Positions 33,838 through 36,371 of a stretch of DNA of 64,000 bases are shown piece by piece. The position numbers and the translations under genes were made by a program. Positions within the stretch are counted from its first letter, which is position 1, and each line of letters opens with the position of its first letter. The notes below the pieces were generated by a model. The model saw only the letters and a list, made by a program, of their open reading frames with translations. It made no database searches and was not told the DNA's origin. The stretch is taken from the NCBI RefSeq assembly GCF_900107455.1, contig NZ_FNQB01000004.1, positions 816,193-880,192 of the forward strand, given 5' to 3'. This DNA comes from Asanoa ishikariensis. GTDB lineage: Bacteria; Actinomycetota; Actinomycetes; Mycobacteriales; Micromonosporaceae.

Positions 33838-34005
33838 CGGCGGACCTGGAAGCGACCGTAGTGGATCGGCGCAAATATCCTAACTAGAGCGATGAGAGCC
33901 GAGGAGAGCGCGGGCGCTAGGACAGCCACATCCCCCGCTTGCGCGAAGGTTCCCGAGTTGAACGGGAACAGGAGGAAGCGCCTGCATGGCCTCGGCTTTC
34001 ACCGC

Positions 34006-36135
34006 TCAGGCCGGGATGAGCTCGCTGAGCCGGTGCAAGGTGAACGTCTCCGATCCGTCGGGCAGACCCTCCGGTGCCTCGATGCCGATGAAGGTGACCG
34101 GCTCGTCCGGCGGTTCGCCGTTCCACGTGCGGACCTCGGCCCGCGCGCGCCACCTGTCGACCAGATAGGACACGGTGAGGTACTGCCGCTCCAGCATCGC
34201 GCGTACCAGGGAAGCCGTTGAAACGGTGTTGTGCTCCACCCGGTTGAACGACGGCCAGCCCTGGAGGTAAAGGTGCAGCCACACGGCCTGCCAGTCGTGC
34301 TCGCGCCGCGTGAACACCATCGGCAGCGCGATCCGGCCCCGGCCGCGCAGGTGCGAGCGCGCCCGCACGGTCCGGGCCTCGAACGGGGCGCCGCGCTGGT
34401 CCTCGGTGCGGGTCTGGTAGCCGAACATCGACTCCGCGACCTCGTCGAACCCCTCTCCTGAATAGACGTTGACCTGGGGAACCACGTACCGCGCCGGGAT
34501 GGTGAGGGGCACGTCGATGAACTCGGTCGCGCCCTTCTTCGCGTCGGTGATGTCGCCGGAGTGCACCACGTCGCCGTGGTGGTAGTTCGTCCAGGACACC
34601 TGGCCGGCGCTGTCGAACTGGTCGTCGAGCAGCAGCACCGACAGGTCGTGGTCGGTGCGACGGCCGGTCTGGCGCCAGTAGGTGAAGAAGCGCAGCAGCT
34701 CACCGGACACCGGGGCTCGCGAGCCCCGCGGCAGCACCGCGAACCCGCCTTCGGCCGCCTTGCCGGACAGCGGCAGCGCGACGTCGAGCACCGCCGGGTC
34801 CACGACCAACGGTCGCGTCGGGTCCGGCAGCCGAGCGGCGATCTCGGCGTCGAGCCGCGACGCGAGCTCCGCCACCAGGTCGGCCGGGAGCGGTCGGCGC
34901 CCGTCCGGCCCCACCCACGCCCGCCGCGCGCGGCTCGCGTACACCCGGGCCGGCGCGGGCGTCAGCCGGTTGGCGACGTGTTCCCGCAGTGAGCAGAGCA
35001 CCCGGCCGGACGCCGACCCGAGCGCGCTCGTGACCGCTTCGACCACATCGGACTGTTCGGCCGGCGATGCCAGTCGCAGCAGCCGGTCCGCGGACCGCAG
35101 GAGCAGCCCCGGGGAGCCCGACAGCACCGTCGCGGCCGGGCCGATGGATCCGGCGCGGACGGCCGCCTCGGCGCGGCCCGCGAGGCTGCGCACCTTGCGC
35201 TCGCCGCGCGCGACCGTGAACACCTGCTGTGCGTGCGGCCACTGGTCGTACTCGTGCGGGTGCAGCCGTTCGCCCAGCCGCTTCCACCGCTCCGCGTACC
35301 GCGCGATGTCCCCAAGCTTGTTGGGGGTCGCCACCTCGTTCAGCGCGGCCAGCAGGACGCGCCGCTCGGGACGGCGAAAGGCACGAAAGCGCGTGGGCGC
35401 GGCGAGTGAGACGTCTCCGCCGGAGGCCTGGCAGGCGAGGCGCAGGACGTCGGTCGTCGAGTCCACGGCCACCAGCGGACGGCCGAGGACGAGCCGGATG
35501 CCGTTGAGCACGGCGCGGTTCTCCCGCACCGGGATCTCGGCCGGCTGGTCGCCGTCCGCGCAGGAGAGGGCGAGCTCGCTGAGGATAGCGAGGTCCGCCT
35601 CACCGTGTGGCGTCGCGCTGCCGGCCAGGGCCAGGTAGAGCCGCGTGGCTTCGACGTCGGCGCTGTCGCCGAGGTGCAGCACGGTGACCCGGTCGCCGGC
35701 CGTGCTGACCAGCGCGTCGTGCGCGGCCAGCAGCTCGGCGTGCGTGTGCCGGTAGACGCCGTACCCCGGCAGGTCGAGCAGGTTGACCGCCGCCAGGGCG
35801 GTCGCCTCGCCGGCGCCGGTGAGCACGGCCGCCCGCAGCCGATCGGCCCAGAACTCGACGGTGTCCGGCACGTCGTGCGGGAAGCCGATGAAATAGGCGT
35901 TGTGCTGGACGTGGTCGCCGACCAGCTCGCGCACCGCGGACACGACCGTGGCGGCGAGGTCCATCGCCGGCCCGGTGGCCAGGGCGCCGATGTGCTCAAG
36001 CAGAGCCCGCGAGGCCGAGAACCCGACGTCGAGCAGTGCCGCGTCGAGCTGGCGGGCCACGGGCGTGCCGTCGCCGGCCTCGCCACCGCTCGCCGGCACG
36101 CGCAAGGTCTTCGCGATGATGAGCTTCTCGAGCAC
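34006..36135 (-). CDS. Large protein with C-terminal TerD-like stress domain
   Basis: GTG 36135 (GGAGG, 5-nt spacing) gives 709 residues. The first 500 residues are helical and uncharacterised (VGDHVQHNAYFIGFPHDVPD, DTVEFWADRL, RRVLLAALNEVATPNKLGD). Residues about 530-680 match a TerD-like domain: LLRFFTYWRQTGRRTDHDL, SVLLLDDQF, DVVHSGDITDAKKGATEFID. TerD-family proteins bind calcium and act in stress and tellurite-resistance complexes. Its start lies 25 nt after a tRNA-like element in the same orientation, so the two could be transcribed together. Confidence 0.75.
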   Translation of the reverse strand: MLEKLIIAKTLRVPASGGEAGDGTPVARQLDAALLDVGFSASRALLEHIGALATGPAMDLAATVVSAVRELVGDHVQHNAYFIGFPHDVPDTVEFWADRLRAAVLTGAGEATALAAVNLLDLPGYGVYRHTHAELLAAHDALVSTAGDRVTVLHLGDSADVEATRLYLALAGSATPHGEADLAILSELALSCADGDQPAEIPVRENRAVLNGIRLVLGRPLVAVDSTTDVLRLACQASGGDVSLAAPTRFRAFRRPERRVLLAALNEVATPNKLGDIARYAERWKRLGERLHPHEYDQWPHAQQVFTVARGERKVRSLAGRAEAAVRAGSIGPAATVLSGSPGLLLRSADRLLRLASPAEQSDVVEAVTSALGSASGRVLCSLREHVANRLTPAPARVYASRARRAWVGPDGRRPLPADLVAELASRLDAEIAARLPDPTRPLVVDPAVLDVALPLSGKAAEGGFAVLPRGSRAPVSGELLRFFTYWRQTGRRTDHDLSVLLLDDQFDSAGQVSWTNYHHGDVVHSGDITDAKKGATEFIDVPLTIPARYVVPQVNVYSGEGFDEVAESMFGYQTRTEDQRGAPFEARTVRARSHLRGRGRIALPMVFTRREHDWQAVWLHLYLQGWPSFNRVEHNTVSTASLVRAMLERQYLTVSYLVDRWRARAEVRTWNGEPPDEPVTFIGIEAPEGLPDGSETFTLHRLSELIPA

Positions 36136-36160: not shown

Positions 36161-36291
36161 GGGGCCGCCGGGGATTCGAACCCCGAACCCTTCGATCCCA
36201 GAGATGAAGGAAGCGCCTCCATGTGCCCGCACAGGGCGGGGAGCGGACGCGCTAATCAGCCGAATGCTCTGCCAGTTGAGCTAGCGACCCC
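36161..36291 (-). tRNA. tRNA-like element with a 57-nt insertion in the anticodon loop
   Basis: Read on the minus strand from 36291, the element has an acceptor strand GGGGTCGC, TA at positions 8-9, a D-arm GCTC-AACTGGCA-GAGC, anticodon-stem 5' side TTCGG and loop CTGATTA. After 57 extra nucleotides (36252-36196) it continues with stem 3' side TCGAA, variable region GGGTT, T-arm CGGGG-TTCGAAT-CCCCG and acceptor GCGGCCCC. TTCGG/TCGAA pair with one G-T wobble. The D-arm to variable-loop part closely resembles actinobacterial tRNA-Asn as I remember it. Without the insert the molecule is about 74 nt. The apparent anticodon is GAT, or uncertain because the insert interrupts the loop. The 3' end gives a C73-type discriminator that pairs with an extra 5' G, and no CCA is encoded. 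It may be an intron-containing tRNA, a pseudo-tRNA or a leader element of the next gene. Confidence 0.6.
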
Positions 36292-36371
36292 GACGACGAT
36301 CTTCACACGCTCCGACGCGGCAGGGCCATCGAGTTTCGGCGCCGCGGCGGGTGCGCTGATCGGAGGTACGC

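Follow-up and report, generated by a model that had tools for sequence, protein, structure and literature searches.

A tRNA-Lys-like RNA with a Ro-type stem in its anticodon loop, a probable partner of the neighbouring predicted Ro-like/TerD protein in Asanoa ishikariensis

Introduction

What is a transfer RNA (tRNA)-like molecule for when a folded insert stands where its decoding loop should be? The question is raised by a locus of the actinobacterium Asanoa ishikariensis (contig NZ_FNQB01000004.1, positions 816,193 to 880,192; this whole stretch of 64,000 nucleotides (nt) is the window referred to below). A sequence-only reading of the window had noticed a tRNA-like element with a 57-nt structured insertion in its anticodon loop, just before a gene with a TerD-like product, and had offered three readings: an intron-bearing tRNA, a dead tRNA, or a leader controlling the downstream gene. 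The analysis reported here favours another answer. It is quite likely that the element is a non-coding partner RNA, in which a tRNA-Lys-like body carries a two-box docking stem for the neighbouring protein, itself predicted to be Ro-like and to bear a TerD-like domain. The computed basis for this answer is the conserved structure of the element, its co-inheritance with the gene, and the reuse of its stem beside homologous genes in bacteria and phages.

A Conserved Structured RNA

The element and its surroundings comprise the following parts.

36161..36290, minus strand: tRNA-Lys-like RNA with a Ro-type stem in the anticodon loop (ARAGORN, Rfam, alignment, covariation)
36290-36284 with 36168-36162, minus strand: acceptor stem of the tRNA-like RNA
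36264-36260 with 36195-36191, minus strand: anticodon stem of the tRNA-like RNA
36161, minus strand: discriminator C of the tRNA-like RNA, in which a D arm and a T arm are also present
36206..36254, minus strand: conserved part of the insert, with box 1 TAGCGCGTCCGC, the closing hairpin CCGC/GCGG and box 2 CATGGAGGCGCTTCCTTC
36291..36336, minus strand: promoter-like, moderately conserved region 5' of the RNA (GAAAC..GATGG....GTGCGATGATCGACATC in relatives)

At its default settings ARAGORN reported no tRNA in the whole window, and it recovered the element with its 57-nt insert once introns were allowed. The whole-window Rfam scan at the gathering threshold missed the element, which scored 44.9 bits in a local search with the Rfam tRNA model (cut-off 29, E-value 1.8e-8). 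No CCA is encoded at its 3' end. Taken as a single sequence, the element folds just 2 standard deviations better than shuffled versions, and its minimum-energy fold disrupts the anticodon stem and pairs CCUUC with GAAGG. Comparison between copies was decisive. Full-length relatives turned up in three other genera of the same family when 61 genomes were searched at the DNA level, and the covariation alignment comprised 61 copies including that of the window (51 distinct) and 34 base pairs. Pairing is kept in 98.8% of the cells over these pairs, and 11 of the 34 change on both sides, amounting to 35 two-sided cells against 7.6 in shuffles, a value reached by none of 500 shuffles. Of the covarying pairs, the anticodon stem contributes four, the insert stem and the acceptor stem three each, and the inner hairpin one; the T arm, the D stem and the CTTCCTTC of the insert are almost invariant. 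The tRNA-like element with a structured insert noticed by the sequence-only reading is borne out by these data.

The letters at the anticodon position behave differently: they drift among relatives (GAT, GAG, GTG, GCG, AAG), and loop lengths vary too. Covarying arms and insert together with drifting anticodon letters form a strong argument both against decay and against decoding. It is virtually certain that the element is a real structured RNA, and the idea of a dead tRNA finds no support. The related idea of a decoding tRNA whose insert is spliced out, or of a new small tRNA intron, draws on the location of the insert near position 37/38 and on ARAGORN, whose call is Ile(GAT) or Pro(GGG) according to the site assumed; yet anticodon-position letters and loop length differ between close relatives, and the inserted stem is also found without a tRNA body, both as plain hairpins and with its boxes swapped (see below), so that an intron is highly improbable. 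A small open reading frame starting from a conserved ATG in the insert was also considered and was dropped because insert length differs by single bases between copies (by inspection).

An extra 5' G facing C73, taken by the sequence-only reading as part of the fold, is present in the window copy and is no general trait: among the 61 copies it recurs just in L071 and L181, and most copies have A73. The RNA of L071, from Actinophytocola xinjiangensis, has an acceptor stem altered on both strands, and tRNA-Ser(CGA), tRNA-Asn(GTT) and further tRNA-like pieces lie between the RNA and the gene (L071:2383-2940). In genome G013 a fragment of the RNA, about its first 42 nt, is fused to an unrelated strong hairpin (L157:3197-3295, minus strand); no gene copy was found in G013 at the cut-off used. 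A plasmid search with the element gave no match. A pattern search of 394 genomes of the class gave one match, in the same family; this pattern is too strict and misses the window copy as well, so that the search is no evidence of absence.

Co-inheritance With the Neighbouring Gene

34006..36135, minus strand: partner gene of 709 amino acids with a GTG start, predicted to encode a helical Ro/TROVE-like part and a TerD-like domain

This gene, on the same strand, begins with its GTG 25 nt after the end of the element; the sequence-only reading had given the same distance to the gene. A protein search with the gene product yielded 57 named loci. An RNA model of the element (R1), with matches at these loci counted above 115 bits, hits 23 of the 57, always 5' of the gene; these are 23 of the 25 close homologues, and the RNA stands just upstream in each. 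In 300 genomes of the Micromonosporaceae, no ordinary tRNA exceeds 77.6 bits with R1, and a match of at least 85 bits occurs in 62 genomes. A full-length gene copy of at least 70% identity occurs in 51 genomes of a 300-genome draw, one of them (G289) with an internal stop codon; the gene tally comes from a draw of the same size as the RNA tally, and genome labels agree where shown. The RNA is present in 51 of 51 genomes with the gene and in 11 of the 249 others. The genomes are related and non-independent, so that the p value of this contrast is no more than a guide, and both the 51 rows and the 85-bit line were chosen after the tables had been seen. In several of these 11 genomes the RNA or the gene is visibly broken. 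That the RNA is a partner of this protein family is very likely.

Proximity to the gene would equally be expected of a cis-acting leader, that is, a tRNA-like structure in the 5' region of the messenger RNA that controls the gene, with RNase P cleavage or an alternative CCTTC/GAAGG fold as possible means. Of the three readings offered earlier this one comes nearest. The RNA is indeed tied to the gene, and the 25-nt spacing, the upstream position in the close homologues and the single-sequence pairing of CCUUC with GAAGG all speak for it. The RNA is nonetheless intact away from the gene in four genomes: in two the distance is 18 and 24 kilobases (kb), and the 2.5 kb ahead of the gene contain no RNA match; in Micromonospora rosaria the two are 3 kb apart; and in M. 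echinofusca they lie on different contigs. Moreover, GAAGG is not kept in relatives (ATCGAATGG, TTGGACGG, CCGGCAGG), whereas the anticodon stem covaries, the two-box stem stands after the gene in other bacteria and phages, and the RNA has an upstream region of its own. Moderate conservation extends over the 46 bases before it, which include a GAAAC and a GATGATC block; such an arrangement would suit a transcript beginning near the tRNA-like 5' end. Weighed together, these observations make a leader quite improbable.

Among the upstream sequences listed, a block of the GAAAAC type, ~30 bases ahead of a -10-like one, is seen by eye 5' of the homologous Streptomyces genes (L081-L104) and of the Micromonosporaceae RNA, as if one promoter type served both. 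After the RNA of G204 there is, again by eye, an apparent strong terminator hairpin.

The element might also be the remnant of a tRNA-derived attachment site, used for integration by a mobile element that carries the gene. The patchy spread of the RNA (62 of 300 genomes) would suit this, and so would G313 and G204 (L174 and L175 with L123 and L126), the genomes with 18-24 kb between RNA and gene, where by eye the usual upstream sequence of the gene resumes at the expected 3' end of the RNA, as if something had been inserted there. Covariation across the whole molecule, insert included, is unexpected for an attachment site, and we regard this origin as hardly credible.

The Two-Box Stem Is Reused Beside Homologous Genes

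A second RNA in the window contains the same two boxes in the opposite order.

33899..33995, minus strand: second RNA, ~10 nt after the stop codon, with outer stem CCGAGG/CCTCGG
33899..33995, minus strand: order of its parts, box 2 CATGCAGGCGCTTCCTCC, a T-arm-like hairpin TTCCCG-TTCAACT-CGGGAA, box 1 TAGCGCCCGCGC

This RNA has no Rfam match. Stems of this kind are common downstream of the gene in other bacteria: among 32 more remote bacterial homologues (Streptomyces, Nonomuraea, Nocardia, Actinomadura and others), a scripted search located one in 26, with ~20 to 210 nt between gene and stem. The search also located one after the gene in 13 of the 25 close homologues and in one of four further loci, and it gave no match in 184,372 bases of control DNA. 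In 34 downstream stems, 10 of 16 pairs change on both sides, giving 62 two-sided cells, where shuffles gave 17.5 and slid versions never more than 19. The search errs in both directions. It missed some true element copies (L107, L109) as well as L212 and L243, in which box 1 is a base shorter; it did not recognise the upstream copies in L072 and L075 as such; and it returned two weak, probably chance matches (L249, L261). A set of 18 phage stems includes one (L243) paired with the wrong box.

Searching viral contigs with the 3' box of the insert likewise retrieved both boxes in swapped order, box 2 first, enclosing either a small hairpin or a permuted tRNA-like domain. In two such contigs the product of the gene just 5' matches the window protein from end to end, at 46% and 49% identity. 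Conversely, a protein search of viral contigs gave 12 loci, all of them with one to four boxes soon after the gene when up to three substitutions were permitted; two of these had been found before and seven are nearly identical among themselves, which leaves about four new lineages as independent support. Three further contigs chosen by eye for the RNA all encode the protein family, one of them 131 kb away. One viral pattern, CCGCTYTCCGC..GCGGNCATGG, gave 15 stretches judged chance-like. Another gave 41, among which five contigs were judged real by eye (L212, L213, L214, L238, L243); all five, the contigs covered by the protein check, encode the protein family.

A named example is Rhodococcus phage Weasels2 (L303, NC_041887.1 80110-89207), whose hypothetical protein gp266 is a relative of the family. 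Five tRNAs lie upstream of gp266, four tandem Y-like stems follow it directly, and RtcB (gp256) is encoded ~3 kb downstream. The boxes of this phage differ, and the scripted search found no copy there; its four stems were read by eye and folded.

A Predicted Ro-Like/TerD Protein

Which protein would hold such a stem? The window protein matches NCBIfam NF041916 (MXAN_6230/SCO0854) with 330 bits, best over residues 309-644, and falls short of the curated cut-off of 600, which makes it a distant relative; the likeness covers part of the 842-position profile, and the RING part implied by the family name was not seen here. When the helical part alone was compared by predicted fold, Ro60/TROVE entries headed the list of matches. 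The resemblance to Ro60/Rsr lies in the predicted fold only. Sequence homology is not detectable: Pfam gave no TROVE match in 42 members of the protein family, and profile comparison of the family with TROVE returned a probability of 0.14%. A further difference from Ro60/Rsr is the TerD-like domain on the C-terminal side, which shows the TerD beta-sandwich in its predicted fold; Pfam listed no TerD family for the 42 members.

We consider it likely that the family is Ro-like. The RNA could instead be the tRNA-derived partner of a non-Ro protein, the stem being bound by the TerD-like domain or by an unrelated helical part and the Ro resemblance being due to chance. This is unlikely, given that Ro60/TROVE entries lead the list for the helical part alone and that YrlA-like RNAs follow homologous phage genes.

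Relation to YrlA and Other Y RNAs

One account of the Y RNA YrlA describes a molecule of 90-150 nt, in which the 5' and 3' ends form a large stem that tethers Rsr and a tRNA-like domain binds PNPase (PMC8394870). In Salmonella, rsr, Y RNA and rtcBA are described as one operon regulated by damaged tRNAs (PMC7790460).

Like YrlA (RF02553), the element combines a tRNA-like domain, complete with D, T and acceptor arms, with a single long stem at the site of the anticodon stem. The differences lie in the sequence of the stem and in the position of the ends. Within the stem formed by the RNA ends, the YrlA alignment passes from the T arm through the acceptor hairpin to the D arm; the acceptor arm is closed by a loop. 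In the window element, by contrast, the ends form an open acceptor stem, and a hairpin caps the Ro-type stem, which sits in the anticodon loop. The element is the same circle of parts as YrlA, cut elsewhere.

Searching with RF02553 at E-values up to 1 matched neither the element nor the downstream RNA at 33899..33995. With the same model, the RNA flanked by the two boxes scored 40.7 and 37.1 bits in two viral contigs, and the third of the RNAs behind Weasels2 gp266 scored 26.4 bits, all under the cut-off of 69, which is reached in none of 197 genomes of the class. Several of the YrlA matches in those genomes (e.g., L275, L281-L285) proved to be tandem ordinary tRNAs rather than Y RNAs. YrlA-like RNAs from other genomes of the class differ in stem sequence but finish with CTACTTC, the counterpart of TTCCTTC here and of TTACTTC in Weasels2 (by eye). 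Since its ends do not form the stem and Rfam gives no match, the element is not YrlA by membership; it is Y-RNA-like by layout and company. Among the literature matches listed, judged by title and the start of the abstract, there was no description of such an RNA; the 2016 work of Burroughs and Aravind lay outside that scope, and its abstract is said to name Y RNAs and a 'novel tRNA-like molecule' with Band-7 proteins.

The host also has a YrlA-like RNA, at C2:1896697-1896766 and below the Rfam cut-off, which follows an array of ~25 tRNAs (L161, C2:1891000-1902000) and precedes a TROVE/Rsr gene apparently interrupted by an intein (by eye). RtcB is encoded at two host loci, neither within the window; at one (L160, C2:957500-963500) a tRNA-Arg(CCT) gene lies ~1.2 kb upstream of the RtcB gene.

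Origin of the tRNA Body

The sequence-only reading had likened the body to tRNA-Asn, an assignment that gave way to tRNA-Lys. A run of 21 letters, GCTAGCTCAACTGGCAGAGCA, is identical between the element and the host's own tRNA-Lys(CTT), and the T arms of the two are nearly identical. To judge from the shared run, the body most likely derives from tRNA-Lys, from which it differs in keeping no anticodon, carrying the 57-nt insert and lacking an encoded CCA. Transfer-messenger RNA (tmRNA) also has a tRNA-like part with an insert replacing the anticodon, and the element is similar in this respect; unlike tmRNA, it gave a tRNA and no tmRNA match in Rfam, and the possible reading frame of its insert is not kept.

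Proposed Role

How might RNA and protein work together? The RNA would be transcribed as the non-coding partner of the adjacent gene's protein, which may form a Ro60/TROVE-like ring joined to the TerD-like domain. The two-box stem, in place of the decoding loop, would be held by the protein as its docking site, and the tRNA-like end could recruit or mimic tRNA-handling enzymes, as YrlA recruits PNPase. As a guess that is less likely than not to hold, the role might lie in handling damaged tRNAs under stress or phage attack. Several phages carrying related versions are rich in tRNA genes, and the placement of phage versions beside tRNA arrays, with RtcB nearby in one phage, fits such a role.

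On balance, we favour a Y RNA with moved ends: a tRNA-Lys would have taken the Ro-binding stem into its anticodon loop, which would leave a real acceptor end accessible to RNase P, to CCA addition and perhaps to charging. Together with the hairpin and YrlA-like versions of other actinobacteria and phages, it would define a class of Ro-like/TerD ribonucleoproteins not described before, with a possible part in tRNA damage and repair during conflict between bacteria and phages. The function of bacterial Ro and Y RNAs could here be approached in an accessory, easily deleted system of one or two RNAs and one protein with dozens of natural variants. If true, evolution can shift the ends of an RNA while keeping both the protein dock and the tRNA-like end, and phage genes annotated as hypothetical proteins become testable RNA-protein machines.

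A separate observation concerns two near-copy viral contigs (L290:757-1138 and L294:757-1138), in which the tRNA array 5' of the family gene contains a match to bacterial class A RNase P RNA, an unusual cargo for a phage.
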